A stretch of DNA of 64,000 nt, taken from positions 1 to 64,000 of the forward strand of contig JAJZUV010000014.1 of assembly GCA_021848345.1 (NCBI GenBank), in the 5' to 3' direction. The translations under genes and the position numbers were made by a program. The notes beneath the pieces were generated by a model. It was not told the origin of the DNA and ran no database searches. It worked only from the letters and a program-made list of their open reading frames with translations. The stretch comes from Pseudomonadota bacterium. GTDB taxonomy: Bacteria; Pseudomonadota; Gammaproteobacteria; Burkholderiales; Burkholderiaceae_C. Below, piece after piece: positions 13,144-57,184 of this stretch; position 1 is the stretch's first letter; every line of letters starts with the position of its first letter.

Positions 13144-14025
13144 ATGCGCATTCGTGATCTGTTGCTGGCGCTGTTGACGGTCGCCATCTGGGGCAGCAAT
13201 TTCGTGGTCATGAAGCTGGGGCTGCGCGGCCTGCCCCCGCTGCTGTTCTGTGCCATGCGCTTCGGCTTCGCGGCCTTTCCGGTGGTGCTGCTGGTGCGCC
13301 ATCCCAAGCTGCCGTGGCAGCGCGTGGCCGCCTGGGGCCTGGCCCAGTTCGCGGTGCAGTTCGGCTTCCTGCTGACCGGGCTGAAACTGGGCATGGCCGC
13401 CGGCCTGTCGTCCATCGTCATGCAATTGCAGGCCTTTTTCACCATCGGCCTGGCCTGGGCCGTGCTGCGCGAGAAGGCGCGCCCGGTGCAGCTGCTGGGC
13501 GCGGCCGTCGCCCTCGCCGGCATGGGGGTGGTGGCCTTGAACCTGCAGCAGCGCACCACGCTGATCGGCCTGCTGCTGCTGATCGCGGGCGCCGTGTCGT
13601 GGGCCGTGGCCAACGTGCTGGCGCGGCGCATCGGGCCGGTGAACGCGGTCGCGCTGGCCTCCTGGGCCAGCCTGTACGCCTGCGTGCCGCTGCTGCTGCT
13701 GTCGCTGGTGTTCGAGGGCGCGGGGACCGACCTGCAGGCGCTGCGCGCCATGGACGCGGACTCCTGGCTGGTGGTGGCGTTCCAGGCCTATCCGGCGACC
13801 CTGTTCGGCTTCGGCGTGTGGTCGGTGCTGATGCGCCGCTACCCGGCGGCGCAGATCGCCCCGTTCACGCTGCTGGTGCCGATCAGCGGCATGATCTGCG
13901 CCACGCTGGTGCTGCACGAGCCGCTGCAGGACTGGAAGCTGCTGGCCGGTGCCATGGTGGTGAGCGGGCTGGCGCTGAACCAGATTCCCGCGCTGCATCA
14001 TCGGCTGCTGGCGCGGCGCGCGTGA
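13144..14025 (+). CDS. EamA-family (DMT superfamily) membrane exporter
   Basis: A protein of 293 residues with ten hydrophobic helices in two five-helix halves, each an EamA domain. IWGSNFVVMKLGLRGLPPLL near the start and LGAAVALAGMGVVAL at the end of the first half are typical. It is closest in layout to the YdeD/EamA metabolite exporters (O-acetylserine/cysteine type). The substrate cannot be read. It begins 9 bases after xth and is followed 64 bases later by the SDR that leads into the 14.9-21.7 kb biosynthetic operon, so it might export that pathway's product (inference). Confidence 0.88.
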   Translation: MRIRDLLLALLTVAIWGSNFVVMKLGLRGLPPLLFCAMRFGFAAFPVVLLVRHPKLPWQRVAAWGLAQFAVQFGFLLTGLKLGMAAGLSSIVMQLQAFFTIGLAWAVLREKARPVQLLGAAVALAGMGVVALNLQQRTTLIGLLLLIAGAVSWAVANVLARRIGPVNAVALASWASLYACVPLLLLSLVFEGAGTDLQALRAMDADSWLVVAFQAYPATLFGFGVWSVLMRRYPAAQIAPFTLLVPISGMICATLVLHEPLQDWKLLAGAMVVSGLALNQIPALHHRLLARRA

Positions 14026-14089: not shown

Positions 14090-14893
14090 ATGGATCTGCA
14101 ACTTTCGGGCAAGCGCGCGCTGGTGACCGGCGGCAGCCGGGGCATCGGCAAGGCCGTGGCGCGGGCGCTGGCGCAGGAAGGCGCGCTGGTGGCGCTGCTG
14201 GCGCGCGGCGAGGCGGCGCTGCGCGAGGCGGCGGACGAGCTGGCCGCGCAATGCGCCGCCACGGTGGTCGCGGTGCGCGCCGACACGACCGACGACGCGC
14301 AGGTGCTCGCGGCGGTGCGCGAGGCCGAACGCCTGCTGGGCGGCGGCATCGACATCCTGGTCAACGCCGCCGCCGAGCCCTCGGGGTACGCGGCGCCTCC
14401 CGGCATCGAGCGCATCCGTGCCGACTACCTGCTCGGCGAGATCGACACCAAGGTCATGGGCTATCTGCGCTGCGCCCAGGCGGTGGTGTCGGGCATGCGC
14501 GAGCGCGGCTGGGGGCGCATCGTCAACGTCAGCGGCCTGGGGGCGCGCCAGACCGGGCACGCGGTGGGCAGCGTGCGCAACATCGCGGTGGCCGCGCTGA
14601 CCAAGAACATGGCCGACGAGCTCGGCCGTTTCGGCATCCAGGCCACGGTGGTGCACCCGGGCACCACGCGCACCGAGCGCACGCCGGAACTGGTGGCCGC
14701 CACGGCGGCGGCGCGCGGCGTGGAGCCCGCGGTGATCGAGCAGGAGATGGCCGCGCGCAATTCCATCCACCACCTGGTGGACGCCTCCGAGGTGGCCGAC
14801 GTGGTGGCCTTCCTGTGCTCGCCGCGATCGCGCGCCATCAACGGCGACGCGATCGCCGTGGGCGGCGGCGCGCCGCGCGCCATCCACTACTGA
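14090..14893 (+). CDS. SDR-fold protein lacking the catalytic YxxxK motif
   Basis: A 267-residue short-chain dehydrogenase/reductase fold. The nucleotide-binding start is good (VTGGSRGIGKAVA, 12-24) and NVSGL keeps a Ser at 148. Aligning the next block with the SDR consensus puts Gly at 160 where the catalytic Tyr should be and Asn at 164 where the Lys should be (GSVRNIAVAALTKN). It can therefore still bind NAD(P), but canonical hydride chemistry is doubtful. SDRs with a SVRN-type block occur as a small subgroup, so this is not a sequencing slip. It ends 15 bases before the AsnB-like gene and is probably co-transcribed with it. Confidence 0.88.
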   Translation: MDLQLSGKRALVTGGSRGIGKAVARALAQEGALVALLARGEAALREAADELAAQCAATVVAVRADTTDDAQVLAAVREAERLLGGGIDILVNAAAEPSGYAAPPGIERIRADYLLGEIDTKVMGYLRCAQAVVSGMRERGWGRIVNVSGLGARQTGHAVGSVRNIAVAALTKNMADELGRFGIQATVVHPGTTRTERTPELVAATAAARGVEPAVIEQEMAARNSIHHLVDASEVADVVAFLCSPRSRAINGDAIAVGGGAPRAIHY

Positions 14894-14908: not shown

Positions 14909-16861
14909 ATGTGCGGCGTCGCCGGGCTGCTCGACTTTGGTCGCTCCCCCTCGGTCGAGGTGGTCCGGGCCATGGTGCGGGCCCTGCACCACCGGGGGCC
15001 GGACGGCCACGGCGTGCAGGCCTGCGGGGCGGCCGTGCTCGGCCACGCCCGCCTGGCGGTGATCGACCCGAACGCCGGCGCCCAGCCGATGGCCAACGAG
15101 GACGCCAGCGTCTGGGTGAGCTTCAACGGCGAGATCTACAACCACGCGCAGCTGAGGCGCCAGCTGCTCGCCCTCGGCCATGGGTTTCGCAGCCATTGCG
15201 ACACCGAGGTGCTGGTGCACGGCTACGAGACCTGGGGCGACGCGCTGGTCGAGCGCCTGGACGGACAGTTCGCCTTCGCGCTGTGGGACGCGCGGCGCCG
15301 ACGCCTGCTGCTGGCCCGGGATCGGACCGGAATCCGGCCGCTGTTCCTGCGCCGCGACGGCTCGCGCCTGGGGTTCGCCTCCGAGGTCAAGGCGCTGCTG
15401 GCCATGCCGGGATGGAGCCCGCGCCTGGACCCGCAGGTGCTCGCCGAGGTGTTCACCACCTGGGGCCCGCTGACCGGGCACAGCCCCTTCGAGGGGGTGC
15501 GCAGCCTGGAGCCGGGCAGCTGCCTGGCGATCAACGAAGACGGCGAGCGCGCGTGGCGCTACTGGGACTGGAGCTTCCCGCGGCGCGAGGACTTCGCGCG
15601 GGACGCCGACGCCGACACGCTGGCGGATGAACTCCGGCAGCGCCTGCAGGCCAGCGTGGAGCAGCGCATGCGCGCCGACGTGCCGGTGGGCGCCTACCTC
15701 AGCGGCGGGCTCGATTCGGCGGCGGTGGCGGCGCTGGCCAGGCAGGCCGGCGCGCGGCGCCTGCGCACCTTCTCGATCCGCTTCGACGATCCGGAATTCG
15801 ACGAGGGCGAGCAGCAGCTGGCCCTGGTGCGCGAGCTCGGCTGCGAGCACACGCAATGGCGCTGCCGCGACGAGGACATCGCGCAAGGCTTCGCGCAGGC
15901 GGTCTGGCACGCCGAGGCGCCGATGCTGCGTACCGCCCCGGTGCCGCTGATGCTGCTGGCGCGACAGGTGCATGCCGCCGGCTACAAGGTCGTGCTCACC
16001 GGGGAAGGGGCCGACGAGGTGTTCGGCGGCTACGACCTGTTCAAGGAGGCCAGGGTGCGCCGCTTCATGGCGCGCGCGCCGCACTCGGCGTGGCGCGCCG
16101 GCCTGCTCAGCCGCCTGTACCCGTACCTGGCGCGCTCGCCCACCGCCAGCGCGGCGCTGGCGCGGGGATTTTTCCGCGCCGATCCGGACAAGCTGGCCTT
16201 GCCCGGCTACGGACACATGACCCGCTGGAGTACCACCCAGCGTTGCTGGCAGATGTTTTCCGCCGATCTGCGCGAGACCCTGCGCGAGCGCGACGTCGTC
16301 GGCGACCTGGTGCGCGGCCTGCCCGCGGAGTTCGCCGGGTGGGGTCCGCTGCAGCAGGACCAGTACATCGAGGCGACCACGCTGCTGTCGCAATACCTGT
16401 TGTGCACGCAGGGCGACCGCATGGCCATGGCGCACGCGGTGGAGGGGCGCTTTCCCTTCCTGGATCACCACCTGATCGAGTTCGCGTCGCGCCTGCCGGC
16501 ACGCTACAAGCTGATGGGGCTGAACGAGAAGTGGCTGCTCAAGCGGGCGATGCGCGGACTGCTGCCGCAGGACGTGCTGGAGCGCTCCAAGCAGCCGTAC
16601 CGCGCGCCCGACAGCCGCTGCTTTTTCCAGGACGGCGTGGAGCGGGACTGGGTGGCCGAACTGCTGGCGCCGCAATCGCTGGGCGAGGCGGGTTACTTCG
16701 ACCCGTCCGCGGTCGCGCGCCTGCTCGCCAAGTGCCGGGCCGGACGGGCCATCGGCTTCGCCGACAACATGGCCTTCGTCGGCGTGTTGTCCACCATGCT
16801 GCTGCATCGGCAGTTCGTGCGCGGCGAACCCCCGCGAAGCCGGGAGCCTGGGGTATCCTGA
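14909..16861 (+). CDS. AsnB-type glutamine-hydrolysing amidotransferase
   Basis: A 650-residue protein in the asparagine synthase B family. The N-terminal Ntn glutaminase domain starts directly at MCGVAG with nucleophile C2 and keeps RLAVIDPNAGAQPM and SFNGEIYNH. The C-terminal ATP-pyrophosphatase domain has the PP-loop SGGLDS at 265-270 and GEGADEVFGGYDLFKE. AsnB relatives either make asparagine or amidate carboxylates in secondary metabolism and polysaccharide modification. Heading an operon with an AMP ligase and a carrier protein points to a specialised substrate rather than free aspartate (inference). The family includes members linked to exosortase/PEP-CTERM loci; no exosortase is seen here. 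Confidence 0.9.
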   Translation: MCGVAGLLDFGRSPSVEVVRAMVRALHHRGPDGHGVQACGAAVLGHARLAVIDPNAGAQPMANEDASVWVSFNGEIYNHAQLRRQLLALGHGFRSHCDTEVLVHGYETWGDALVERLDGQFAFALWDARRRRLLLARDRTGIRPLFLRRDGSRLGFASEVKALLAMPGWSPRLDPQVLAEVFTTWGPLTGHSPFEGVRSLEPGSCLAINEDGERAWRYWDWSFPRREDFARDADADTLADELRQRLQASVEQRMRADVPVGAYLSGGLDSAAVAALARQAGARRLRTFSIRFDDPEFDEGEQQLALVRELGCEHTQWRCRDEDIAQGFAQAVWHAEAPMLRTAPVPLMLLARQVHAAGYKVVLTGEGADEVFGGYDLFKEARVRRFMARAPHSAWRAGLLSRLYPYLARSPTASAALARGFFRADPDKLALPGYGHMTRWSTTQRCWQMFSADLRETLRERDVVGDLVRGLPAEFAGWGPLQQDQYIEATTLLSQYLLCTQGDRMAMAHAVEGRFPFLDHHLIEFASRLPARYKLMGLNEKWLLKRAMRGLLPQDVLERSKQPYRAPDSRCFFQDGVERDWVAELLAPQSLGEAGYFDPSAVARLLAKCRAGRAIGFADNMAFVGVLSTMLLHRQFVRGEPPRSREPGVS

Positions 16862-16904
16862 ATTTCCGTAAACTCGCCGGTCGCACTCCCGAGCACGCCA
16901 CCCC

Positions 16905-18446
16905 ATGACCCATCTGCTGCACCAGACCTTCGAGACGCAGGTGCGGCGCGTTCCGGGAAAGACCGCGCTGGTGCGCGAGGGCCGCCGCAGCAGCTACGCC
17001 GACATCGACGCGCTGAGCGCGGCGCTGGCTTCCAGCCTGCGCGCGCACGGCGTCGGGCGCGGCGACCGGGTGGCGCTGTTCCTGGACAACTCGGAGCACA
17101 TGGTCGCGGCCATCTACGCCGTGCTGCGCATCGGCGCCGTGTTCATGCCGGTGAATACCCTGACCAAGGCCGACAAGCTGGCCTACGTGCTGGCGGACTC
17201 CGAGGCCGTCGCGCTGGTCACCCAGCATGCGCTGGCCGAGGTGGCGCGCCAGGCGCTGGGCCTGGCGCCCGGCGTGCGCCACTGCTGGCTGGCCGACGAC
17301 GGCTACCCGGCGCCCAGCCCCGAGCTCGCCGGGCAGGTGGCCTACCCGCCGGCCCCGGAGCCGGGCGCGGCAGCGCCGGAGCCCGCGCCGGTGATCGATC
17401 TGGACCTCGCGGCCATCATCTACACCTCAGGCTCCACCGGTCGGCCCAAGGGGGTGATGCTGAGCCACCGCAACATGCTCAGCGCGCTCGATTCGGTCAG
17501 CACCTACCTGGGCCTGCACGAACACGACGTCGTCACCTGCGCGCTTCCGCTGGCCTTCGACTACGGCCTGTACCAGGTGCTGATGGCCTTCGCGCTGGGC
17601 GCCACGGTGCTGCTGGAACGCTCCTTCACCTATCCGGCGCGGGTGCTGCAGGACATGGCCCGCGAGGGCGCGACCGTGTTCGCCGGCGTTCCCACCATGT
17701 TCGCGTTGCTGCTGGGCATGGATCTGTCGGGTTTCGACCTGCGCAGCCTGCGCATGGTCACCAACACCGCGGCGGCACTGCCGGTGGCCCACATCCAGCG
17801 CATCCGGGCCGCCTTTCCCCAGGCCCGGCTGTACTCCATGTACGGGCTCACCGAATGCAAGCGCGTGAGCTACCTGCCGCCCGAGCAGCTGGACATCCGC
17901 CCGGGCAGCGTGGGGCGGGGCATGCCCAACGAGGAACTCTGGCTGGTCGACGAGCAGGGCCGGCGCCTGCCGGACGGCAGTACCGGCGAGCTGGTGGTGC
18001 GCGGAAGCCACGTCATGCGCGGGTACTGGAGGCAGCCCCAGGCCACCGCCGAGCGCCTGCGTCCCGGGCCGCTGCCCGGCGAGATGGTGCTGTACACCGG
18101 CGACCTGTTCCGCAGCGACGAGCAGGGCTGGCTGTACTTCGTCGCGCGCAAGGACGACATCATCAAGAGCCGCGGCGAGAAGGTCAGCCCGCGCGAGGTC
18201 GAGAATGTGCTGCACGAGATCTCCGGCGTGCGGCAGGCGGTGGTGGTCGGGGTGCCCGACGAGCTGCTGGGCGAGGCGATCAAGGCCTTCGTGGTGCCGG
18301 AGCCGGGGCGCACGCTGGACCAGCGCGCGGTGCTGCGGCACTGCCAGGCCCGCCTGGAGAGCTTCATGGTGCCGCGGCAGGTGGAATTCGTTTCCGAGCT
18401 GCCGCAGACGGACAATGGCAAGGTGCGTCGCGCTTCGCTGCTCTGA
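16905..18446 (+). CDS. AMP-forming acyl/aminoacyl ligase (ANL superfamily), carrier-protein partner
   Basis: A 513-residue adenylating enzyme. The ATP-binding motif YTSGSTGRPKG starts at Y173, followed by YGLTE, YTGDLF, the hinge region KDDIIKSRGEKVSP and the C-terminal catalytic lysine in NGKVRR (about K506). It would activate a carboxylic acid as acyl-AMP and transfer it to CoA or, more likely here, to the carrier protein encoded 37 bases downstream. In size it resembles the stand-alone ligases of carrier-protein systems (DltA-like, or the ligase found at exosortase loci). The acid it activates is unknown. ATG 16905 follows the AsnB-like gene by 43 bases. Confidence 0.9.
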   Translation: MTHLLHQTFETQVRRVPGKTALVREGRRSSYADIDALSAALASSLRAHGVGRGDRVALFLDNSEHMVAAIYAVLRIGAVFMPVNTLTKADKLAYVLADSEAVALVTQHALAEVARQALGLAPGVRHCWLADDGYPAPSPELAGQVAYPPAPEPGAAAPEPAPVIDLDLAAIIYTSGSTGRPKGVMLSHRNMLSALDSVSTYLGLHEHDVVTCALPLAFDYGLYQVLMAFALGATVLLERSFTYPARVLQDMAREGATVFAGVPTMFALLLGMDLSGFDLRSLRMVTNTAAALPVAHIQRIRAAFPQARLYSMYGLTECKRVSYLPPEQLDIRPGSVGRGMPNEELWLVDEQGRRLPDGSTGELVVRGSHVMRGYWRQPQATAERLRPGPLPGEMVLYTGDLFRSDEQGWLYFVARKDDIIKSRGEKVSPREVENVLHEISGVRQAVVVGVPDELLGEAIKAFVVPEPGRTLDQRAVLRHCQARLESFMVPRQVEFVSELPQTDNGKVRRASLL

Positions 18447-18483
18447 GCGCCGCGACGAGGCACGCAATCACGGGAGCATGTCG

Positions 18484-18750
18484 ATGGCCACGACCATCCA
18501 GCAGCAGGTGCGCGGTTACATCCGCGAGAACTTCCTCATGGGCGCGCAGGATCTGGAATTCGGCGACGCCGACTCGCTGCTCGACCGGCACATCGTGGAT
18601 TCCACCGGCATCCTGGAGCTGATCCTGTACCTTGAGGAGTCCTTCGACGTGCGCGTGCTCGACGCCGAGATGGTGCCGGAGAACCTGGACTCGCTGGACG
18701 CGATCGCCGCCTTCGTGCAGCGCAAGCGCGAGTCCGCGACGCAGGCCTGA
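18484..18750 (+). CDS. Stand-alone acyl/peptidyl carrier protein
   Basis: A small acidic helical protein of 88 residues with the 4'-phosphopantetheine attachment site in IVDSTGILEL (Ser40). The downstream helix LEESFDVRVLDAEMVPEN is typical of acyl carrier proteins, and the end has the LDSLDAIAAFVQ helix. I chose ATG 18484, which has GGGAG at the right spacing (7 bases), over ATG 18478, which sits directly on that site. Lying between an AMP ligase and a NadE-like ligase, it most likely holds the pathway intermediate as a thioester. It differs from the housekeeping AcpP, which has a DSLD-type site. Confidence 0.9.
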   Translation: MATTIQQQVRGYIRENFLMGAQDLEFGDADSLLDRHIVDSTGILELILYLEESFDVRVLDAEMVPENLDSLDAIAAFVQRKRESATQA

Positions 18751-18756
18751 CGCGCC

Positions 18757-19740
18757 ATGCAGGAGCTGTCCCCGCGGGTGCTGGACATCGATTGCGAGGC
18801 GCAGGCGCTGCGCATCGAGGATTTCCTGCGCTCCGCGCTGGCGCGCATGCACCGCCGCGGCGTGGTGCTGGGCCTGTCCGGCGGGGTCGACAGCTCGGTG
18901 TGCGCGGCGCTGGCCGCGCGCGCGCTGGGCCCGCAGCGCGTGGTCGCGCTGCTCATGCCCGAGCGCGAATCGGGCGAGGCGTCGACGCGCCTGGGCGAGC
19001 AGGTCGCGCGCGAACTCGGGCTGCGCTGCCTGCACGAGGACATCACGCCGGCGCTCGACGGCCTGCAGTGCTACGCGCGGCGCGACCAGGCCATCCGCGA
19101 GTTGTTCCCCGACTACGGCCCGGGCTGGAAGAGCAAGCTGGCGATCGCCGAGGGTGCCGCCGGGCGGGTGCATTTCTTCGACCTGGTGGTGCAGGATCCG
19201 CGTGGCGAGCTGCGGCGCCGGCGCCTGCCGCTGCAGGCCTACCTGCGCATCGTGGCGGCCACCAATTTCAAGCAGCGGGTGCGCAAGAACCTCGAGTACC
19301 ACCATGCCGACGCGCTGAACTACGCGGTGCTGGGCACGCCCAACCGGCTGGAGTTCGACCAGGGTTTTTTTGTCAAGAACGGCGATGGCGCCGCCGACCT
19401 CAAGCCCATCGCGCATCTGTACAAGACCCAGGTCTACGCGCTGGCACGGCATCTGGGCCTGCCGCGCGAGGTCTGCGAGGCCCAGCCCACCACCGACACC
19501 TACAGCCTGGCGCAGGGGCAGGACGAGTTCTACTTCGCGCTGGAATGGCCCCGGATGGACCTGGCGCTGTGGGCGCGCGACCACGGGGTCGCGGCGGAGC
19601 GGCTGGCCGAGGCGCTGGACATCGAGCCGGCGCAGGCGCACCACGTGTACGCCGACATCGACGCCAAGCGTCGCGGCACGGCCTACCTGCACTGGCCGGC
19701 GCTGCGCATCGAAGCCGACGAGCACGGGCCGACCCCATGA
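18757..19740 (+). CDS. NadE-like ATP-pyrophosphatase / amide ligase
   Basis: A 327-residue protein related to ammonia-dependent NAD synthetase. The PP-loop SGGVDSS is followed by GTPNRLEFDQGFFVKNGDGAADLKPI split over the central region (compare the GTxNxxE and KxGDGxxD motifs of NadE) and KTQVYALARHLGLP. After that the classic PTAxL motif becomes QPTTDTYSLAQGQDEFYF, and residues 120-165 contain an Arg-rich insertion, so it is a divergent paralogue longer than the usual roughly 270-residue NadE. It may adenylate a carboxylate and accept ammonia or an amine. It could still be the cell's NAD synthetase, but its setting between a carrier protein and a methyltransferase argues for a dedicated role. 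Confidence 0.8.
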   Translation: MQELSPRVLDIDCEAQALRIEDFLRSALARMHRRGVVLGLSGGVDSSVCAALAARALGPQRVVALLMPERESGEASTRLGEQVARELGLRCLHEDITPALDGLQCYARRDQAIRELFPDYGPGWKSKLAIAEGAAGRVHFFDLVVQDPRGELRRRRLPLQAYLRIVAATNFKQRVRKNLEYHHADALNYAVLGTPNRLEFDQGFFVKNGDGAADLKPIAHLYKTQVYALARHLGLPREVCEAQPTTDTYSLAQGQDEFYFALEWPRMDLALWARDHGVAAERLAEALDIEPAQAHHVYADIDAKRRGTAYLHWPALRIEADEHGPTP

Positions 19741-20663
19741 CCACCGACTTCGGCGGCCCCCGTTGTCTCGACGGACTCGAGCGCCTGCGCGCGTCGCTGC
19801 GGATCCTGCCCGACAAGCCGGAGGAAACGCCGGAGACCGCGCTGCGCGCGCTGTGGTGCCGTGCCGCGGGGCTGTACCTGTCGGTGCAGGCGGCGCAACT
19901 GCGGGAGCCCCCGCCGCTGGACGCCGCCGGGCTGGAGCGCCTGGACGCGCTGATCGCGCGCCGGCTCGCCGGCGAACCCCTGGCCTACCTGCTGGAGCGC
20001 CAGCGCTTCATGGATCTGGAACTGCTGGCGCGCCCCAGCGCGCTGATTCCCCGGCGCGAGACCGAGATGCTCGGCGAGGCGGCGTTGGATCTGCTGCGCC
20101 AGGCGGCCGCCGCGGGCGCTTCGCCCTGCTGCATCGACGTGTGCTGCGGCAGCGGCAACCTGGCGCTGGCGATGGCCCGCGCGGTGCCCGCGGCGCGGGT
20201 GCACGGCGCGGACCTTTCGGCGCAGGCGCTGGAACTGGCGCGCGAGAACGCCGCGCAACTCGGCCTGGAGCAGCGCGTGCACTGGCACGAGGGCGACCTG
20301 CTGGCCCCTTTCGACGGGGCAACCTGGGCGGGCACGGTGGACGTGCTGATTTCGGCGCCTCCCTACATCTCGAGCGCGCGGCTGGACACCATGCCGCGCG
20401 AGATCATCGGATTCGAGCCGGCGATGGCCTTCGACGGCGGAGCCTTCGGCGTGGGCATCCTGATGCGCCTGCTGCGCCAGGCTCCCGAGCTGTTGCGCGC
20501 GGGCGGCTGGCTGTGCGTGGAAGTGGGCCTGGGCCAGGGCGGCGCGATGGCGCAGCTGGCGCGCCGCGATGCGCGCTACGACGAGGTGCGCGCGGTACTC
20601 GACGAGCAGGGCCACGAGCGGGTGCTGCTGGCGCGCCGCGCCGCGGGGCGGCAGGGTGGCTGA
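19737..20663 (+). CDS. PrmC/HemK-like SAM methyltransferase with altered NPPY motif
   Basis: A class I SAM methyltransferase of 308 residues that overlaps the NadE-like gene by 4 bases (ATGA). It has the N-terminal helical domain of PrmC and the block PLAYLLERQRFMDLELL, then IPRRETEML, the SAM motif DVCCGSGNLALAMA (134-147) and GADLSAQALELAREN. The active-site tetrapeptide is APPY (207-210) instead of NPPY. In PrmC that Asn holds the glutamine amide being methylated, so a change to Ala suggests a different acceptor or a non-amide substrate. It is therefore probably not the release-factor methyltransferase itself. It is translationally coupled within the pathway operon. Confidence 0.85.
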   Translation: MTTDFGGPRCLDGLERLRASLRILPDKPEETPETALRALWCRAAGLYLSVQAAQLREPPPLDAAGLERLDALIARRLAGEPLAYLLERQRFMDLELLARPSALIPRRETEMLGEAALDLLRQAAAAGASPCCIDVCCGSGNLALAMARAVPAARVHGADLSAQALELARENAAQLGLEQRVHWHEGDLLAPFDGATWAGTVDVLISAPPYISSARLDTMPREIIGFEPAMAFDGGAFGVGILMRLLRQAPELLRAGGWLCVEVGLGQGGAMAQLARRDARYDEVRAVLDEQGHERVLLARRAAGRQGG

Positions 20664-21720
20664 GGCAGGGGTCCCGGACTACCGCGTGGAGCCGGCGCGC
20701 CTGCCCGAGCAGGCGGCGAGCATCGTCGCCTTGTGGAGCGAGGCGCTGGGATTCGCCGAGCGCAGGCCCCTGAAGCTGGACTGGTTCTACCTGCGCAACC
20801 CGGCCGGCGAGCCGCGCCTGCTGCTGCTGATGCACGAGGCCCGCGTGGTCGGCGTCACGGGACTGGGCGGGCGCCGGCTGTGCTGGCGGGGCCGGGAACT
20901 GGACGGCGCCTTGATGGGCGACTTCGCCGTCGACAGCCATCACCGCACCCTGTACCCCGCGATGGTGCTGCAGCGCGCCGCGCTGGAGCAGGGCTTGGCG
21001 CGCCACGAATTGCTGTACGGTTTCCCGAACGCCAAGTCGCTGCCCGTGGTGCGCCGTGCCGGCTACCAGGTGCTGCCGGGCATGGGCCGGTACGCGCGGG
21101 CGCTGCGCAGCGAGGCGTACCTTCCCGGCGCATGGCCCGGGCCGCTGCGCCGTGGCGCGGGTGCCGCGCTGGACGCGGCCTTGTCGCTGCGCCACGCGGC
21201 CAGGCTGTGGCATCAGGGGCGGCTGCTGCGCGAACAGTGGCTGGACAGCCCGGACGAGCGATTCGACGATCTCTGGGCGCGTGCCAGCCGGGCGCTGCCA
21301 GACTGCGTGCTCGGGCGCCGCGACGGGGCCTTCCTGCGATGGCGTTTCGAGGCGCGCGCCTGGCATCGCACGCGGTTCCTCGTGCTGGCCGATCCGGCCA
21401 CGCGGCGCCTGGCCGGCTACGCCGCCTGCGAGACCGAAGGCGGCGCGATGCACGTGCGCGACCTGCTCGTGCAGCAAGCCTCGGCGCCCCTGGTCGCGCA
21501 TGTGCTGCGCCTGGCGGCGCGCCAGGCGCGGGCGCAGGGCCTGCGCAGCCTTTCGATGCAGTGCGGGGGGCCGCCGTGGCTGCTCGCCGGCCTGCGCGCG
21601 GCGGGACTCCGCCTGCGCGAGGCCGGTGCGCAGCCGATGATCCTGGCCCAGGCGCCCGACACGCAGGCCGCGCTGGCGCAGGCCTGCTGGTACCTGACCG
21701 GGGCCGACTCCGACGAGTAA
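20656..21720 (+). CDS. GNAT-fold acyltransferase, last gene of the pathway operon
   Basis: A protein of 354 residues. The GTG at 20656-20658, preceded by GGGGCGGCAGG, overlaps the methyltransferase end by 8 bases. The N-terminal half reads as a GNAT domain: LWSEALGFAERRP, LMGDFAVDSHHRTLYPAMVLQRAALEQG, then GFPNAKSLPVVRRAGYQVL, where the NAKS segment and the Gly-Tyr end are typical. The C-terminal half (about 200-354) looks like a second, weaker domain of the same kind (RFLVLADPATRRLAGYAACETEGGAMHVRDLL), as in two-domain GNAT proteins. It probably transfers an acyl or aminoacyl group to the product; substrates are unknown. It ends 24 bases before the convergent oxidoreductase gene. Confidence 0.75.
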   Translation: MAEAGVPDYRVEPARLPEQAASIVALWSEALGFAERRPLKLDWFYLRNPAGEPRLLLLMHEARVVGVTGLGGRRLCWRGRELDGALMGDFAVDSHHRTLYPAMVLQRAALEQGLARHELLYGFPNAKSLPVVRRAGYQVLPGMGRYARALRSEAYLPGAWPGPLRRGAGAALDAALSLRHAARLWHQGRLLREQWLDSPDERFDDLWARASRALPDCVLGRRDGAFLRWRFEARAWHRTRFLVLADPATRRLAGYAACETEGGAMHVRDLLVQQASAPLVAHVLRLAARQARAQGLRSLSMQCGGPPWLLAGLRAAGLRLREAGAQPMILAQAPDTQAALAQACWYLTGADSDE

Positions 21721-21744: not shown

Positions 21745-24700
21745 TCAGCGTTGCACGCTGATCGCGATGCCTCGCAGTTGTCCCGCCTGCGGCGTGCGCG
21801 CGGGCGCCGCGTAGCGCCGCGGGTCCAGGCGGTGCAGCAGCTCGTCGCGGCGCAGGCGCGCGGCCTCGACGGCGGCGAGCTTGACGTGGCCGAAACCGCG
21901 GATCTGTTGCGGCAGCGAGGCCAGCGCGACGCCCAGTTCGAGCTTCGAGGCGTCGAGCTGGGGCAGCAGCTCGTCGAGCAGGGTCTCGAACTCCTGGATC
22001 AGCGCGCGCTCCATGCGCCGCTCGGCGCCGTGGCCGAACGGGTCCAGCCAGGTGCCGCGCAGGCGCCGCGCGCGCGCCAGCAGCTTGAGCGGGCCCAGCA
22101 CCCAGGCGCCGACGCGCAGCTTGCGCGGGGCCGCGCCGGCGCGGGGCCGCGCCAGCCAGGGTGGCGCCAGATGCAGGTGCAGGCGCGCGGGGCCCTCGAA
22201 CTGCTCGGCCAGGCTGCGCGCGAAGCGGCCGTCGGTGTACAGGCGCGCCACCTCGTATTCGTCCTTGTAGCTCATCAGGCGCAGCAGGCTGCGCGCGGCG
22301 GCGTCGGCCAGGCGGCCGTCGCCGCCGAGTTCGGTCTCACGGCGGCGCACCGCCTCCACGCGGCGCGCGAAGCGCTGCGCCCAGGCGTCGTCCTGCCAGG
22401 CCCGCAGGTGGTCCATGGCCGTGCGCAGGAAATCCGGGGCCTCGGCGGGCGCGGGTGCCTCGCCTTGCAGCAGCTCGCGGCAGGCCTGCGGGTCGGCCGC
22501 CGACAGGCGGCCCAGCGCGAAGGCGATGCGGTTGGCCTGCACCGCCACGCCGTTGAGCTCGATGGCGCGCTCCAGCGCCTGCGCGCTCACCGGCACCAGG
22601 CCCAGCTGCCAGGCATGGCCCAGCGCCAGCACGTTGGCCGCGGTGGTGTCGCCGAGGAATTCCTCGGCCCACGCCTGGGCGTCCAGGGTGCGCACCTGCT
22701 CGGCCCCGGCGGCGCCGCGCAGCTTGGCCAGCAGTTGCTCGGCCGGCCACGGCGCGTCGCGGTCCAGCACCGCGTGGGCGGTGGGCGCCGCGTGTTCGTT
22801 GACCAGCATGCGCGTGCGCCCGTGGCGCACCGTCTGCAGCGCCTCGGCGCTGGCCGCGGTGACCATGTCGCAGGCCAGCACGGCGTCGGCCTGCTGGGCG
22901 TCGATGCGCACCTGGTGCAGCCGGTCGGCGCGGTCGGCCAGGCGCACGAAGGACAGCACCGCGCCGCCCTTTTGGGCGAAGCCCATGAAATCCAGCACGC
23001 TGGCGTGGTAGTCCTGCAGATGCGCGGCCATCGCCACCAGCGCGCCCACGGTGACCACGCCGGTGCCGCCCACCCCGGTGACCAGCAGGTCGTAGGGAGC
23101 GTCCCACAGATGCGGGGCCGGCTGGGGCAGGGCCGCGGCGCGCGCCAGCAGTTGCTCGGCGGCATGCGCCTGCAGTCCCAGGCGGCGCTTGAGCACCGCG
23201 CCCTCGATACTGACGAAACTCGGGCAGAAGCCCTTGGCGCAGGAATAGTCCTTGTTGCAGGCCGTCTGGTCGATGCGCCGCTTGCGTCCCAGCGCGGTCT
23301 CCAGGGGTTGCACGGCCACGCAATTGCTCTGCACCGAGCAGTCGCCGCAGCCTTCGCACACCAGGTCGTTGATGAACAGGCGACGCGTGCGCTCGGGCGC
23401 CAGCCCCTTCTTGCGCCGGCGCCGCAGCTCGGCCGCGCAGGTCTGCTCGAAGATCAGCACGGTGACGCCGTCCATCTCGCGCAGTTCGCGCTGCACGGCG
23501 TCGAGCTCGTCGCGGTGGTGAAAGCGCGTGCCCGGCGGGAAGCGGTCCTGCATGGCGCGGAACGCGGCCACGTTCTCCGACACCACCGCCACGCAGCGCA
23601 CGCCCTCGCTTTCCACCTGGCGCGCGATGGCGTCGACGCTGATCTTGCCGTCCACCGGCTGGCCGCCGGTCATCGCCACCGCGTCGTTGAACAGGATCTT
23701 GTAGGTCATGCGGGCGCCGGCCGCCACCGCCTGGCGGATCGCCAGGTAGCCCGAGTGGTAGTAGGTGCCGTCGCCGAGGTTCTGGAACACGTGGGGCGCG
23801 CGGGTGAACATGGAGTGCGACACCCAGTCCACGCCCTCGCCGCCCATCTGGATCAGGCCCTCGGTGTCGCGGTTCATCCAGCTGGCCATGAAGTGGCAGC
23901 CGATGCCGGCGCGCGCGCTCGAACCCTCGGGCACGTGCGTGGAGGTGTTGTGCGGGCAGCCGGCGCAGAAATAGGGAATGCGCCGCAGCGCGTCCACCGG
24001 GCTGGTCGGAAGCTGCGGTGGAAGGAAGTCGCGCACGTGGCGCCGGTGGTCGTTGAAGGTGGCCTGGTCGGGGAAGTGGCGCACCAGCCAGTCGGCCAGC
24101 AGCTCGATCAGGCGCGAGGGGCGCAGCTCGCCGGTGCCAGCCACCAGCGGGCGACCGTCGCGGTCGTGCTTGCCGACGATCGCCGGGCGCAGCTCGGGCG
24201 GCTGGTTGTACAGCAGCTCGCGCAACTGGTTCTCCACCACCGGTGCCTTCTCCTCGACCACCAGCAGTTCGTCCAGGCCGCGCGCGAATTCCAGCGCGCG
24301 CGTCGACTCCAGCGGGAAGGACAGCCCGACCTTGTACAGGCGCACCCCGGCCGCGGCCAGCATGTCCGGCGTGATCTCCAGGCGCCGCAGCGCCTCCATC
24401 AGGTCCAGGTGGGCCTTGCCGCAGGTGACGATGCCCACGCGCGCGTGCTCGCTGCGGATGAGCTCGCGGTCGATGCTGTTGACCCGCGCGAAGGCGCGCG
24501 CCGCCTCCAGCTTGTCGGCCAGGCGGGTCTCGATGCGCAGCGAGGGCAGGTCGGGCCAGCGGTAATGCAGCCCGTCGGCCGGCGCCTGGTGCCCGGTGGC
24601 GGCGGCCACGCCGGCCGCGTCCAGCCAGGCCACGCGGCGGGCCCGCAGCAGGTCCAGGTCGACGCTGGCGCGGCTTTCCACCACCTCGGACAGCGCGGTC

Positions 24701-25374
24701 ATGCCCACCCAGGCGCCGCAGTAGCGCGACAGCGCCCATCCGTACAGGCCGAATTCCAGGTATTCCGCCACGCTGGCGGGGGACACCACCGGCATGCCCA
24801 TGCCCTGCAGCACCAGGTCGCTCTGGTGGGGGAAGGAGGAGGACACGCATCCATGGTCGTCGCCGGCCACCACCAGCACCCCGCCGTGCGGCGAGGAGCC
24901 GTAGGCGTTGCCGTGGCGCAGCGCATCGCCGGCGCGGTCCACGCCCGGGCCCTTGCCGTACCACATGGAGAACACCCCGGCGGCGGTGCGCTCGGGGTCG
25001 GTCTCCACGCGCTGGGTGCCCAGCACCTGGGTGGCCGCGAGTTCCTCGTTGACCCCGGGCACGAAGCGCACCCCGGCGGCGTCCAGTTCGGCCTTGGCGC
25101 GCCACAGTTCCTGGTCCACCATGCCCAGCGGGGAGCCGCGGTAGCCGCTGACGAAGCCGCGCGTGTCCAGGCCCTGCTCGGCATCGCTGGCGCGCTGCAT
25201 CAGCAGCAGGCGCACCAGCGCCTGGGTGCCGGTGAGCAGCACGCGCCCGCGCGGGGCCAGCAGCGCGTCGCGCAACTGGTAGTCGCGGCGCAGCGGCGTG
25301 GCGTCGGACGGGACGGGGCCGGACTCGGCGGTGGCGGAATCGGCGGTGGGGGAAGCGGGGAGGACGTTGGACAT
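21745..25374 (-). CDS. Indolepyruvate ferredoxin oxidoreductase, fused alpha-beta form
   Basis: A 1209-residue protein with the full IorA-IorB fusion layout. It oxidatively decarboxylates aromatic or branched 2-oxo acids to acyl-CoA, passing electrons to a low-potential acceptor. It opens with the pyruvate-oxidoreductase pyrimidine domain (FVSGYRGSPLGMVD), then the TPP domain (NLGDGTYYHSGYLAIRQA and MTGGQPVDGK, about 530-570). Two iron-sulfur cysteine sets, CEGCGDCSVQSNC (about 672) and CNKDYSCAKGFC (about 704), follow, then a gamma-type domain (VTGVGGTGVV, about 763) and a long C-terminal domain. I start at ATG 25372-25374, the first Met before the conserved region. An Lrp-type regulator is divergent, 108 bases away. 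Confidence 0.94.
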   Translation of the reverse strand: MSNVLPASPTADSATAESGPVPSDATPLRRDYQLRDALLAPRGRVLLTGTQALVRLLLMQRASDAEQGLDTRGFVSGYRGSPLGMVDQELWRAKAELDAAGVRFVPGVNEELAATQVLGTQRVETDPERTAAGVFSMWYGKGPGVDRAGDALRHGNAYGSSPHGGVLVVAGDDHGCVSSSFPHQSDLVLQGMGMPVVSPASVAEYLEFGLYGWALSRYCGAWVGMTALSEVVESRASVDLDLLRARRVAWLDAAGVAAATGHQAPADGLHYRWPDLPSLRIETRLADKLEAARAFARVNSIDRELIRSEHARVGIVTCGKAHLDLMEALRRLEITPDMLAAAGVRLYKVGLSFPLESTRALEFARGLDELLVVEEKAPVVENQLRELLYNQPPELRPAIVGKHDRDGRPLVAGTGELRPSRLIELLADWLVRHFPDQATFNDHRRHVRDFLPPQLPTSPVDALRRIPYFCAGCPHNTSTHVPEGSSARAGIGCHFMASWMNRDTEGLIQMGGEGVDWVSHSMFTRAPHVFQNLGDGTYYHSGYLAIRQAVAAGARMTYKILFNDAVAMTGGQPVDGKISVDAIARQVESEGVRCVAVVSENVAAFRAMQDRFPPGTRFHHRDELDAVQRELREMDGVTVLIFEQTCAAELRRRRKKGLAPERTRRLFINDLVCEGCGDCSVQSNCVAVQPLETALGRKRRIDQTACNKDYSCAKGFCPSFVSIEGAVLKRRLGLQAHAAEQLLARAAALPQPAPHLWDAPYDLLVTGVGGTGVVTVGALVAMAAHLQDYHASVLDFMGFAQKGGAVLSFVRLADRADRLHQVRIDAQQADAVLACDMVTAASAEALQTVRHGRTRMLVNEHAAPTAHAVLDRDAPWPAEQLLAKLRGAAGAEQVRTLDAQAWAEEFLGDTTAANVLALGHAWQLGLVPVSAQALERAIELNGVAVQANRIAFALGRLSAADPQACRELLQGEAPAPAEAPDFLRTAMDHLRAWQDDAWAQRFARRVEAVRRRETELGGDGRLADAAARSLLRLMSYKDEYEVARLYTDGRFARSLAEQFEGPARLHLHLAPPWLARPRAGAAPRKLRVGAWVLGPLKLLARARRLRGTWLDPFGHGAERRMERALIQEFETLLDELLPQLDASKLELGVALASLPQQIRGFGHVKLAAVEAARLRRDELLHRLDPRRYAAPARTPQAGQLRGIAISVQR

Positions 25375-25482
25375 GGCGGTCTCGACGATGGCACAGGAAC
25401 CATAGTCCCCCGTCTGAGAAAAAACCTTTCCGAATTCCACGGATCCGGCGCAAAATCGGGATGAAATTTCTGAAGGATGGGT
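25375..25482. promoter_or_regulatory. Divergent promoter region between the oxidoreductase and Lrp-type regulator
   Basis: A 108-base gap with a local AT-rich core (GAGAAAAAACCTTTCCGAA, 25417-25435, and GGATGAAATTTCTGAAGGA, 25459-25477) in otherwise GC-rich DNA. It must hold both promoters. Lrp/AsnC proteins usually bind AT-rich DNA next to their own gene, so this is the expected operator, but no clean 15-bp Lrp palindrome is visible. Confidence 0.5.
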
Positions 25483-25959
25483 ATGGGCGAGCAAATGATT
25501 CTCGACGCCTACAGTCTGCGCATTCTCGAGGAGCTGCAACGGGATTCGCGCCAGACCGTGCAGCAGCTGGCGGACAAGGTCGGCCTGTCGAGCACGCCGT
25601 GCTGGCGCCGCGTGAAGGAGCTGGAGGCCAGCGGCGTGGTGCGCGGCTACACGGCGCTGGTCGACCGCGCCAAGGTCGGCCTGCACCTGCTGGTGGTGGC
25701 CGAGATCAACCTCAGCCGGCACAGCGAGAGCATCGTGGAGGACTTCGAGCGCGAGGTGCTGGCGCAGCCGCAGATCGTGCGCTGTCTGTCGACCACGGGC
25801 CAGGCCGACTACCTGCTGACCATCGCGCTGCCCGACATCGAGAGCTACGAGCGCTTCCAGCACCAGGTGCTGTTCCGGTTGCCCGGAGTCACGCACGTGC
25901 GCTCGAGCATCGTGCTCAAGGAGGTCAAGGCCGAGGTGCGCCTGCCGCTGACGCGCTGA
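25483..25959 (+). CDS. Lrp/AsnC-family transcriptional regulator
   Basis: A 158-residue regulator. The N-terminal winged helix-turn-helix (LDAYSLRILEELQRDSRQTVQQ, split by LADKVGLSSTPCWRRVKELE) is followed by the RAM ligand-binding domain (GLHLLVVAEINLSRH and LSTTGQADYLLTIALPDI). I chose ATG 25483 because AAGGA sits 5 bases before it; ATG 25477 would add two residues. Lrp-type proteins sense amino acids. Its position divergent from the indolepyruvate oxidoreductase fits local control of aromatic or branched amino-acid breakdown (inference). Confidence 0.93.
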   Translation: MGEQMILDAYSLRILEELQRDSRQTVQQLADKVGLSSTPCWRRVKELEASGVVRGYTALVDRAKVGLHLLVVAEINLSRHSESIVEDFEREVLAQPQIVRCLSTTGQADYLLTIALPDIESYERFQHQVLFRLPGVTHVRSSIVLKEVKAEVRLPLTR

Positions 25960-36864: not shown

Positions 36865-37189
36865 TGCATGCTCCCTGAGGCGCACCGAGGAAAGAAGCGA
36901 TCCGCGCGGGCGTCGGCCAGGGCCGCTGCGACCCGCGCCTGAAGCTCAACCATAGGCCCGGGCGGGCTGTGTTGTCTTGACGGCCAGCAAAGTTTGCAAA
37001 TACCCCTAGGGGTTGTCGCGAATTGTGTCAAAACAACAGGCGGCGGTTTTTCTCACGGGGAAGCTAGTCGAATCGCGCGGAATTCCCCGTAATAATGACG
37101 TTAATTCCGGGACGCAGCCGACCGTCGGTCGTGGGCGTTACCGCCGTGGGCGGCCAGGCCGGCCCGGCTGCACAAGAACGCGGACAGAC
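36865..37189. promoter_or_regulatory. Divergent control region between cydA and the pilin operon
   Basis: A 325-base gap. It holds an imperfect FNR-type site, TTGAC-GGCC-AGCAA (36977-36990; consensus TTGAT-N4-ATCAA), 113-126 bases upstream of cydA, fitting oxygen control of cytochrome bd. Next come TTTGCAAA (36993-37000) and the palindrome ACCCCTAGGGGT (37002-37013). Closer to the pilin gene are TAATAATG (37090-37097), a possible -10, and the inverted repeat CGACCG-T-CGGTCG (37119-37131). No sigma-54 -24/-12 box, often seen before pilA, is visible. Confidence 0.5.
37002..37013. promoter_or_regulatory. ACCCCTAGGGGT palindrome, CsoR/CstR-like operator candidate
   Basis: A perfect 12-bp palindrome with C4/G4 tracts around CTAG, next to TTTGCAAA. 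Operators of the CsoR/CstR/FrmR family (copper, persulfide and formaldehyde sensors) have the same build, an AT-flanked ACCCC...GGGGT inverted repeat. No csoR-like gene is in the window, so the link is by pattern only. It could act on cydA, on the pilin genes, or on both. Confidence 0.35.
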
Positions 37190-37615
37190 ATGGCGAAACC
37201 AGTCGCTTCGGGGGGATTCACGCTGATCGAGTTGATGATCGTGGTGGCGATCGTCGCCGTGCTCGCGGCCGTCGGAATCCCGGCCTACAACGCCTACGTC
37301 ATGCGCGGTTACATGCACGGCGCGCAGGACGCGCTGGTCGAACAGGCCAACGAAGTGCAGAAATACGCGCAGGACAACGAGAAATACCCGACGAGCTGCC
37401 CCGACCCGGTGACCGCGATCAATTTCACCATCACCTGCTCGTCGTCGACGTCCACCACCTACCTGCTGACGGCCACCGGCACCGGGCCCGCTGCCGGTTT
37501 CACCTTCACGCTGGACGAGTCGGGCAATCGTGCGACGACGGCGGCCCCGAGCGGCTGGGCCACCAGCTCGACCTGCTGGACGCGGGATCAGGAGGGCGAC
37601 TGTGCGGTGCAATGA
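37190..37615 (+). CDS. Type IV pilin, PilE-like
   Basis: A 141-residue prepilin. A short leader MAKPVASGG is cut by prepilin peptidase after Gly9, giving mature FTLIELMIVVAIVAVLAAVG with the Glu5 needed for assembly. The globular part has a cysteine pair bracketing its end (SSTCWTRDQEGDC), the D-loop typical of PilE/PilA-type pilins. It may be a minor pilin of the PilE class common in Burkholderiales operons of this order. ATG 37190 was chosen because the leader length is right; the upstream frame is basic and unsupported. It is the first gene of the operon. Confidence 0.88.
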   Translation: MAKPVASGGFTLIELMIVVAIVAVLAAVGIPAYNAYVMRGYMHGAQDALVEQANEVQKYAQDNEKYPTSCPDPVTAINFTITCSSSTSTTYLLTATGTGPAAGFTFTLDESGNRATTAAPSGWATSSTCWTRDQEGDCAVQ

Positions 37616-38135
37616 CCTTCGTACGGCCCGCGCGCAGTCGGGCTTCACGCTGCTCGAACTGCTGCTCACGGTGGTGGTGATGGGTGTGCTGCTGGCGGTC
37701 GCCATACCCTCGTTCCAGTCCATCGTGCAGGGGCAGCACAACACCGACATCACCACCCAGTTCGCGCAGGATCTGGCCTGGGCGCAGGGCACGGCGCTGT
37801 CCGGTCAGACGGTGGTGATGACCATCAACGCCGACGGTTCGTGGGGCATGACCGAGCGCACCTACGACAAGACGACCGGCACGTTCGGAACTATGGCCTT
37901 CCCCGGGCACTCGATGACCTCGGCGCAGCTGCAGGCGGACGACCCCGGCGTGAGCTGCGCGTTGGTCACCGGCAGCGCATCCCAGAGCTGCCAGCAGACC
38001 CTGAGCTTCACCTCCATCGGCACCGTCACCGGGCTCACCCCCGGCGTGTTCCAGTACACCAGCGGCACCAGCAAGTCGTCCTTCCAGGTCTTCGCCTCCG
38101 GCACCCTCGTGCCCAATCCCAGCTATGCCTCCTGA
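37602..38135 (+). CDS. fimT: Minor pseudopilin, FimT/GspH family
   Basis: A 177-residue prepilin-like protein. The GTG start at 37602-37604 is supported by a near-perfect ribosome site (AGGAGGG, spacing 5) and overlaps the PilE-like gene by 14 bases. Leader up to ARAQSG, then FTLLELLLTVVVMGVLLAVA with Glu5. The body fits the GspH/FimT fold (QFAQDLAWAQGTALSGQ followed by INADGSWGMTERTYD). It contributes to the minor-pilin complex that primes pilus assembly. Confidence 0.88.
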   Translation: MRCNDLRTARAQSGFTLLELLLTVVVMGVLLAVAIPSFQSIVQGQHNTDITTQFAQDLAWAQGTALSGQTVVMTINADGSWGMTERTYDKTTGTFGTMAFPGHSMTSAQLQADDPGVSCALVTGSASQSCQQTLSFTSIGTVTGLTPGVFQYTSGTSKSSFQVFASGTLVPNPSYAS

Positions 38136-38577
38136 TCGCCGCCAAGCGCATCGTCAGCTCGGGGCCAGCCTGATCGAGGTGCTGGTGGCCCTGCTGATCT
38201 TCTCCTTCGGCCTGTTGGGCCTGGCCGGGCTGTACGCGCGCGGCGCGCCCACGCCCTTCGCCAATCAGACCGTGATCAACGTGCAAGCCGCGGCCGACAG
38301 CCTGATGGCCGCGCTGGCCAACGACACCGCGGGACTTCCGTCCTGCGGGGTCACCAAGGTGAGCGCGCCCGCGAGCATGCCCAGCTGGCTGAAGGACTGG
38401 CTGACCCAGGCCCAGCAGCAAATTCCCAGCCTGGTCGTGACCATCGTGCCCGGCAAGGATGCATCCGGCAACGCCTGCTCGTCGACCAGCTGCGGCATCA
38501 CCGCCACCTTGTACTGGACCGAAGGCTCCACCCAACGTTCGCAGGTATTCCATGCGCAGATCGGCATCCACAGCTGA
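38125..38577 (+). CDS. pilV: Minor pilin PilV-like
   Basis: A 150-residue prepilin that overlaps fimT by 11 bases. Leader MPPDRRQAHRQLG, cleavage after Gly13, mature ASLIEVLVALLIFSFGLLGL: Ala at +1 and Glu at +5, the usual PilV pattern (SLIEVL). The C-terminal part has a Cys pair (NACSSTSCG). PilV belongs to the priming minor-pilin set and, with FimT, PilW, PilX and PilY1, forms the pilus tip complex. Confidence 0.88.
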   Translation: MPPDRRQAHRQLGASLIEVLVALLIFSFGLLGLAGLYARGAPTPFANQTVINVQAAADSLMAALANDTAGLPSCGVTKVSAPASMPSWLKDWLTQAQQQIPSLVVTIVPGKDASGNACSSTSCGITATLYWTEGSTQRSQVFHAQIGIHS

Positions 38578-39808
38578 GGTGCTTCCGCGGGGCCGAGCCG
38601 GACGCCAGGCCGGCGTGACCCTGGTCGAGTTGATGGTGGCCATCGCGGTGGCGCTGATCCTGTCGCTGTCGATCCTGGGCGTGCTGGTGTTCTCGGCCAG
38701 CAGCAACAAGAACGCCACCACGCTGGGCACGCTGAACAACAATATCCGCGGAGTGTTCACGCTGTTGACCATGGATGCGAACAGCGCGGGCTTCATGCTG
38801 GGCGCCGCGCAGTCGCAGTGCGCGCTCACCTTGCTGCACGATTCCAATCTGACCACGCAGCCGCCCAATGCCTACCCGGCATGGGCGCAGGACCAGACCA
38901 ACAAGGGCAACCTGCCCTTCACCAACAACACCACCAGCTATCCGCCGGCGAGCTGGGGCAACGATACCCAGATCCTGCTGTTCACGGCCTCGCCCTCGGT
39001 GCCGCAGTACACCACGACCGGCGCATCGCCCAATGCCCTGCTGCCGTCTCCGGTCTCTACGGCCGCCTATGGAGCCACCTGGACGGCCACGCCCAGTGCC
39101 TTGGTCTCGGGGACCCTGCAACTGACCTCCACCTCGGGACTGACCCAGGGCGACGTCGCGATGCTTCAGGTGCCAATGTCGAACGCGCTGGTGTGCATGC
39201 GTGTCCCGGTGTCCGCCATCTCGGGCAGCACCATCACCAGCACGCCGGGCGCGCAACTGATGCCGGCCAATGCCTATAGCGACTTCGCCCAGCAGATCCC
39301 CAGCGGCTATGGCGTTCTTGGCATCGGACAGTTGCAGCACGCGCGCCTGCTCGACCTCGGACAGTCCAACAGTTCGATGCAGATCGTCGAGTACTGGATC
39401 GACGACAGCAACGGCTACCCGGTGCTGATGCGCAGCGTCTACAGCGCCCTGACCGACAGCCTGATCGGCACCGACGCCCTGGCGCCGGGGGTGGTGAGCC
39501 TGCAGGCCCTGTTCGGCACGATTCCGCAAGGCGCCAAGCCCGGTACCGTCATTCCGACCTTCAAGGCCTGGAGCGACGTCGACTCGGCGACGGACCAGGT
39601 GGTCTCGGTGGCGCTGGCGGTGGTCACCCGCACCCTGTACGACGACAGCAGCTACACGGCTCCGGCGACCATCACGGTGCCGCAGCCGGCCAGCGGCCTG
39701 ACGGCCCCCGACGCGTTCACCGACTACAAGGTGTCCACCGCCGAGCAGCACCGGCATTTCCAGGTCAACACCATCGTCATCGCGCTGAGGGACGCAACAT
39801 GGGACTGA
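38552..39808 (+). CDS. pilW: Minor pilin PilW-like
   Basis: A 418-residue protein, a usual PilW size. The ATG at 38552 overlaps the end of pilV by 26 bases. Leader to RAGRQAG, then VTLVELMVAIAVALILSLSI with Glu at +5 and a long N-terminal helix. The globular domain has the MDANSAGFMLGAA and GYGVLGIGQLQHARL segments. Ser/Thr/Asn-rich stretches and more AT-ending codons than in the flanking housekeeping genes are apparent from here through the PilY1-like gene. Confidence 0.88.
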   Translation: MRRSASTAEVLPRGRAGRQAGVTLVELMVAIAVALILSLSILGVLVFSASSNKNATTLGTLNNNIRGVFTLLTMDANSAGFMLGAAQSQCALTLLHDSNLTTQPPNAYPAWAQDQTNKGNLPFTNNTTSYPPASWGNDTQILLFTASPSVPQYTTTGASPNALLPSPVSTAAYGATWTATPSALVSGTLQLTSTSGLTQGDVAMLQVPMSNALVCMRVPVSAISGSTITSTPGAQLMPANAYSDFAQQIPSGYGVLGIGQLQHARLLDLGQSNSSMQIVEYWIDDSNGYPVLMRSVYSALTDSLIGTDALAPGVVSLQALFGTIPQGAKPGTVIPTFKAWSDVDSATDQVVSVALAVVTRTLYDDSSYTAPATITVPQPASGLTAPDAFTDYKVSTAEQHRHFQVNTIVIALRDATWD

Positions 39809-40359: not shown

Positions 40360-40399
40360 GGCGCCAACCCGCGACGGGCGCGCACGAGAGAGGATGAAC

Positions 40400-56123: not shown

Positions 56124-56188
56124 GCGCGCATGATACGGGCGGGGTTCGCGCGTGCATCCTGGGTTCGACGCAATGGGGGCGCACGGTG
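56124..56188. promoter_or_regulatory. marR-reductase divergent promoter
   Basis: Only 65 bases separate the starts, so the MarR protein and the oxygenase genes must share control sequence. GCGCATGATACGG (56126-56138) and CGCGTGCATCC (56149-56159) are the only near-repeat halves; no perfect palindrome is present. Confidence 0.4.
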
Positions 56189-57160: not shown

Positions 57161-57184
57161 AGCCGCATGGGCAAGGAGGGCGCG

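Follow-up and report, generated by a model that had tools for sequence, protein, structure and literature searches.

What does an operon make that encodes an AsnB-type amidotransferase, an AMP-forming ligase, a free carrier protein, a NadE-like ATP-pyrophosphatase, a PrmC-like methyltransferase and a GNAT acyltransferase? This question is raised by positions 14,909 to 21,720 of a 64,000-nucleotide stretch (hereafter the window; contig JAJZUV010000014.1, assembly GCA_021848345.1) from a host that is Thiomonas-like by its nearest records. We found all six genes co-directional on the + strand, with intergenic gaps of 43, 31, 6, -4 and -8 bases from AsnB to GNAT, as an earlier note made from the sequence alone had described, and the identities that it had given to the six proteins were borne out by profile matches and by the predicted fold of the GNAT protein.

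We propose, with a probability of about one in two, that the operon serves to build an acyl donor, with an amide in it, on a carrier protein of its own and to move it to an amine, most probably on an amino sugar belonging to an exported polysaccharide or glycolipid. The ligase would adenylate a small acid and load it onto the carrier; in this version an alpha-amino acid whose side chain is acidic or polar is probable. AsnB and the NadE-like protein would amidate carboxylates, one of them on the carrier-bound group, although the target of AsnB may be the acceptor instead, in the manner of WbpS, which makes uronamides. The PrmC-like enzyme would methylate the same carrier-bound group, and the tandem GNAT would transfer it from the carrier to the amine. 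Acylation of the carrier by the ligase has been reported for relatives in Sinorhizobium meliloti; the amidation, methylation and transfer steps, the substrate, the order and the acceptor are what we infer.

A conserved gene set with a widespread core

To search for the six-gene order across genomes we used 98 loci: the best 80 of 444 NadE-like relatives, which lean toward near kin, 17 loci that came from sampling the class evenly (369 genomes), one of them a broken partial match, and the window itself. Two class-sample loci (L106 and L110) lie on the same contigs as L085 and L061 and were each counted once, giving 96 distinct loci. The order AsnB-ligase-carrier-NadE-methyltransferase-GNAT on one strand was found in 15 of these, window included, all from Thiomonas or its tree neighbours apart from one Rhizobacter record (L030). 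In L007 the gene order is identical to that of the window, the orthologues are 94-97% identical from the upstream EamA gene to the methyltransferase, and the GNAT is 95% identical. Such identity in the same order, together with the 15 loci sharing it, shows that the order is not due to chance and that the operon is real and conserved.

The association is broader for the first genes of the operon. AsnB, ligase and carrier were found near the NadE-like gene in 62 of the 75 distinct loci with enough flank, and in 12/17 loci of the even class sample, where the NadE-like gene itself occurs in 18 of 369 genomes (17 besides the host's own). Within the genus, 18 of 28 genomes carry the NadE-like gene, and AsnB and the ligase were each found in 17, the same genomes but one (Fisher p 8e-7); in the odd genome, without an AsnB or ligase match, the NadE-like gene lies at the edge of a contig. 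At the thresholds used, AsnB and ligase were detected in none of the 10 genus genomes that have no NadE-like gene. The possibility that these genes are unlinked in relatives, raised by the earlier note, is thus contradicted. That note also knew of no pathway with this exact set, and in the parts of the open-access literature available to us we found no description of one. The set is nevertheless not isolated from known systems, as its four core genes are widespread, occurring often in XrtA/PEP-CTERM exopolysaccharide (EPS) loci and also in S. meliloti. The operon appears to be one form of a bacterial pathway that is widespread, for the most part uncharacterised and more general than six genes.

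Some loci depart from this arrangement. Eleven, several of them from Thiomonas (L016, L018-L020, L025-L027, L036-L038 and L045), have ligase-carrier-NadE-methyltransferase and no AsnB found within 9 kb, some of their flanks being short; by eye, ten of the eleven have glnA and ntrBC-like genes alongside. The AsnB orthologue of one genus member (G370:C8:90229-92175) contains an in-frame TAG. Finally, two tandem Asn_synthase genes at the start of another contig (G000:C33:91-3645, L126) apparently belong to a different system.

Proposed loading of the carrier and the coupling of ligase type to methyltransferase

AsnB (14909-16861, + strand) matches TIGR01536 with 499 bits (cut-off 267.1), and its Cys2 is invariant in the 60 aligned sequences. 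It is not the only Asn_synthase protein of the genome, in which three other strong places were found. The ligase (16905-18446, +; PF00501, 329.6 bits) is of the free-standing adenylation-domain type, and its best solved-structure matches are amino-acid adenylation domains. In its pocket region, the residue aligned with the Asp in EntF's FDVSVW is Asp219; amino-acid adenylation domains use this position to bind the alpha-amino group. Residue 219 is Asp in 49/76 and Ser in 20/76 sequences of the alignment. Arg320, which lies in the stretch of the pocket following TEC(K), shows no variation (76/76) and would fit a side chain that is acidic or polar. The carrier (18478-18750, +) bears a DST motif that is invariant in 75/75 sequences; its best profile is NF052616, with 52.1 bits against a cut-off of 130, and its matches among solved chains are, for the most part, peptidyl and D-alanyl carriers of the free-standing kind. 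The matches of ligase and carrier and the alignment of Asp219 together argue for amino-acid-type loading.

In a plasmid search, 116 records contained the NadE-like gene; Sinorhizobium accounted for 76. On pSymB of S. meliloti the genes run asnB-carrier-ligase-nadE, the ligase being unannotated in one record, and the products show identities of 47% (AsnB), 44% (carrier), 56% (ligase) and 57% (NadE-like protein) to those of the window. This set has all four core genes, a DST carrier and an Asp-type ligase, as the window does, but differs from it in that the carrier precedes the ligase and no methyltransferase or GNAT gene is directly attached. The carrier-ligase stretch of strain 1021 likewise has a NadE-like gene alongside. 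The pSymB ligase and carrier are apparently SMb20650 and SMb20651, an assignment based on replicon, adjacency and motif, without a locus-tag match. According to the accessible part of PMC7232532, SMb20650 is cotranscribed with the carrier SMb20651, co-expression in E. coli gave acylated SMb20651, and FadD could not be replaced by SMb20650. The excerpts seen of PMC12391972 and PMC5686131 describe the function of SMb20651 as unknown or needing study, and its DST motif is noted in the former.

Our results show that the identity of residue 219 goes together with the presence of the methyltransferase gene. Among 88 distinct readable loci (90 if two duplicates are included), 49 had Asp and the methyltransferase, 4 Asp without it, 35 another residue without it, and none another residue with it. 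When five plasmid loci were added and short flanks dropped, the same classes held 51, 2, 36 and 0 of 89 loci. Among the plasmid loci, Mesorhizobium ciceri has Asp with the methyltransferase, and two Azospirillum and one Shinella have Gly without it. A further non-Asp module, on a plasmid of Mesorhizobium sp. NBSH29 (L139), looks broken, with AsnB and the NadE-like protein each matching in two pieces. On the NadE-like tree, for which 89 rows were thinned to 74, short-flank loci dropped and L139 excluded, we obtained 7 supported independent contrasts. The methyltransferase went the same way as Asp in a mean of 5.6 and never the opposite way (p between 0.031 and 0.0625, median 0.031), S. meliloti being scored as methyltransferase-present on a gene 11.6 kb from its core. 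An initial test without plasmid loci had only 3 contrasts and was not significant.

A strict rule, by which Asp would occur if and only if a methyltransferase gene is nearby, does not hold: 4 Asp loci among the 88 distinct (4/90 readable) have none in range, and the rule also failed at S. meliloti, where none lies within 9 kb of the core. A further look at this Asp-type relative located, as the coupling predicted, a methyltransferase gene 11.6 kb from the core (L133/L140), near lipopolysaccharide, GNAT, GumC, deacetylase and glycosyltransferase genes. The simplest reason for the coupling would be that the methyltransferase acts on what the ligase loads.

Proposed amidation, methylation and transfer

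The NadE-like protein (18757-19740, +) scores 471.5 bits against NF002048/PRK00876 (cut-off 313) and has the fold, as predicted, and the ATP-pyrophosphatase motif SGGxDS of NAD synthetase. It could accordingly be read as a second NAD or NMN synthetase in a cluster concerned with pyridine nucleotides, a reading that we consider very improbable. Compared with E. coli NadE, it carries a family-wide insertion of about 50 residues and a QGQDEFYF motif that is absent from the E. coli protein, and its signature after PTTD differs. The genome has a further NAD_synthase protein to which it is paralogous, an open frame of 627 aa on contig C14 with a full NAD_synthase domain (237 bits). This discards the possibility, named in the earlier note as one that would refute its reading, that it might be the sole NAD synthetase candidate, and means that it need not form NAD in the cell. 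Its rarity in the class and its company of AsnB and ligase in 17/18 genus genomes speak against the nucleotide reading too.

The S-adenosylmethionine (SAM)-dependent methyltransferase (19737-20663, +) is PrmC/HemK-like and passes TIGR03534 narrowly (201.7 bits against 199.1). It is not the single housekeeping PrmC of the genome, since a better match (264 bits) lies on contig C20. PrmC, which methylates an amide nitrogen, has the active-site motif NPPY, whereas the protein of the window has APPY; across the family the Asn column holds N in 21, A in 17 and L in 9 of 47 sequences.

The last gene (20656-21720, +), with a GTG start, was matched by no NCBIfam family at E 0.001 and by a single Pfam family, below its threshold. 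Its predicted structure (predicted local distance difference test, pLDDT, 92.5) is a tandem GNAT with an Eis/N-myristoyltransferase-like fold, which places it in the GNAT superfamily, and it has a conserved C-terminal WYLTxADxDE. The earlier note had read the operon as acting on a carrier-bound acid that is amidated, methylated and acylated. Amidation and methylation are still the best reading and fit the coupling between ligase and methyltransferase, but acylation may be the wrong way round, it being more likely that the GNAT uses the carrier-bound group as donor.

A narrower version of our proposal can be formulated, which we hold only tentatively. In it, the NadE-family enzyme would amidate a carrier-bound amino acid and the PrmC-family enzyme would N-methylate it, yielding an undescribed class of methylated-amide substituents of surface glycans, with Asp-ligase plus methyltransferase, and non-Asp-ligase lacking it, as exchangeable cassettes on one conserved core.

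Polysaccharide context and known systems

The destination of the acyl group is suggested by what surrounds the module elsewhere. Relatives of XrtA exopolysaccharide genes lie beside 10 of the 17 class-sample loci, the gammaproteobacterial neighbours being an XrtA tyrosine autokinase, a chain-length determinant, an export protein and a polysaccharide deacetylase; one scanned representative of each neighbour family was above its NCBIfam cut-off. Exosortase was found in 12/18 genomes with the NadE-like gene and in 112/351 of the others (Fisher p 0.004), although none was seen in three genomes with an XrtA-type locus beside the module (G072, G202 and G275). Two Azospirillum plasmid loci have glycosyltransferases and a polysaccharide deacetylase followed by carrier-ligase-AsnB-nadE-GNAT. 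An EPS context recurs across gamma-, beta- and alphaproteobacteria. In some other proteobacteria the module is joined by a KASIII-like gene, a small second-carrier-like protein (by eye) and another GNAT-like family that matches the GNAT of the window by profile (E 4e-25). Asparagine synthetase genes in EPS clusters are also mentioned in the parts seen of PMC9012009 and PMC3684757.

The operon might instead make a free, exported small molecule, such as a modified amino acid amide or a short acyl-amino acid leaving through EamA, with no glycan involved. We judge this unlikely. An EamA exporter gene is indeed next door in the window, where by eye no EPS genes adjoin the operon; in S. meliloti the annotation shows none within 9 kb of the core four, and only one hypothetical gene adjoins the core genes in Shinella. 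However, the exporter is not conserved with the module (8/80 loci), the EPS context spans three proteobacterial groups, and in S. meliloti EPS-type genes lie about 12 kb away, beside the methyltransferase.

The polysaccharide context also raises the question of membership in the XrtA system itself. The XrtA/PEP-CTERM amidotransferase and AMP ligase families TIGR03108 and TIGR03098 are among the best-scoring families, and many relatives of the module lie in XrtA EPS loci. Yet the AsnB of the window scores 415.9 bits and five relatives, some of them XrtA-linked, 412-466 against the TIGR03108 cut-off of 816.9, and the ligase 473.2 and five relatives 355-483 against the TIGR03098 cut-off of 592.35. 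With these scores, and with no exosortase in the 28 genus genomes, we rejected full XrtA membership.

A related alternative is a linking sugar, in which AsnB would make a uronamide, the GNAT would add an amino acid supplied by ligase and carrier, and proteins or glycans would then be joined to it. There is precedent in the 2-N-seryl glucuronamide of type IX secretion, for which the accessible part of PMC7468200 describes WbpS (AsnB-like, of the TIGR03108 family) and VimA, a putative N-acetyltransferase, and links VimA and TIGR03108 to PEP-CTERM loci, where the module elsewhere lies. This pathway resembles the window in that an AsnB-type amidotransferase and an N-acetyltransferase-like protein join an amino acid to a sugar, but the same part of PMC7468200 describes no carrier, ligase, NadE-like protein or methyltransferase for it. 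As AsnB falls far below TIGR03108, the genus has no exosortase and the NadE-like enzyme would be left unexplained, we regard this alternative as quite improbable.

Several observations weigh against our proposal of a carrier-bound donor destined for a glycan. No polysaccharide genes were seen by eye beside the operon in the window, and exosortase was absent from the host's own genome (93.7% complete) and from all 28 genus genomes, so that the module is uncoupled from XrtA in this genus. Among the 17 class-sample loci the methyltransferase was found in 2, a recognisable GNAT in 1 and all six genes in none, which confines the methylation and GNAT steps to a subset of the family. In Thiomonas and its closest loci, NPPY has lost its Asn (giving APPY or LPPY), which the other loci keep; if the ancestral enzyme methylates an amide nitrogen like PrmC, the Thiomonas form may have changed its target atom or its activity. 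The NadE-like protein keeps most NAD-synthetase motif residues, and its substrate may therefore still be a nucleotide. As to the coupling, two of the Asp loci without a methyltransferase (L068 and L086) have fair flanks, the other two having less than 2 kb on one side. The ligase tree gave only 4 contrasts (median p 0.25), so that the coupling may largely reflect exchange of a ligase-methyltransferase pair and not residue change; ligase type and methyltransferase seem to form a cassette that is swapped while the core stays constant.

The genes flanking the operon appear to be local. The earlier note had placed an EamA exporter and a short-chain dehydrogenase/reductase (SDR) without YxxxK directly upstream, and both are present on the + strand: the former at 13144-14025 (PF00892, 115.9 bits) and the latter at 14090-14893, with G...N in place of YxxxK by eye and NF004779 as its best NCBIfam match, under its cut-off. 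Among the best 80 of the 444 NadE-like relatives, orthologues of EamA (at least 71% identity) and of the SDR (at least 77%, one partial) each lie near only 8 loci, which argues that both are a local addition outside the conserved core. By eye, the region downstream of the operon (21745-25959) holds a convergent gene for indolepyruvate ferredoxin oxidoreductase together with an Lrp/AsnC regulator, and the window further contains a run of type IV minor pilin genes with GFTLIELM-type leaders in a stretch of lower G+C (37013-43591) and an operon for an aromatic ring-hydroxylating dioxygenase that also encodes an AMP ligase of its own and a MarR regulator (55659-61835).

Genes annotated piecemeal as asparagine synthase, acyl-CoA ligase, NAD(+) synthase and PrmC behave as one pathway from Thiomonas-like bacteria to Sinorhizobium, and one that many exopolysaccharide loci contain. 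Naming this pathway would correct misleading nadE and prmC annotations and give the orphan carrier SMb20651 a context, and our reading of it offers a testable guess at a glycan substituent. The Dlt and Alm aminoacyl carrier systems decorate the cell surface by means of a free-standing amino-acid ligase, a free carrier and a transferase. The operon of the window would resemble them in having these three components, and differs from them in that its transferase is a tandem GNAT and that amidotransferases and a methyltransferase are added.

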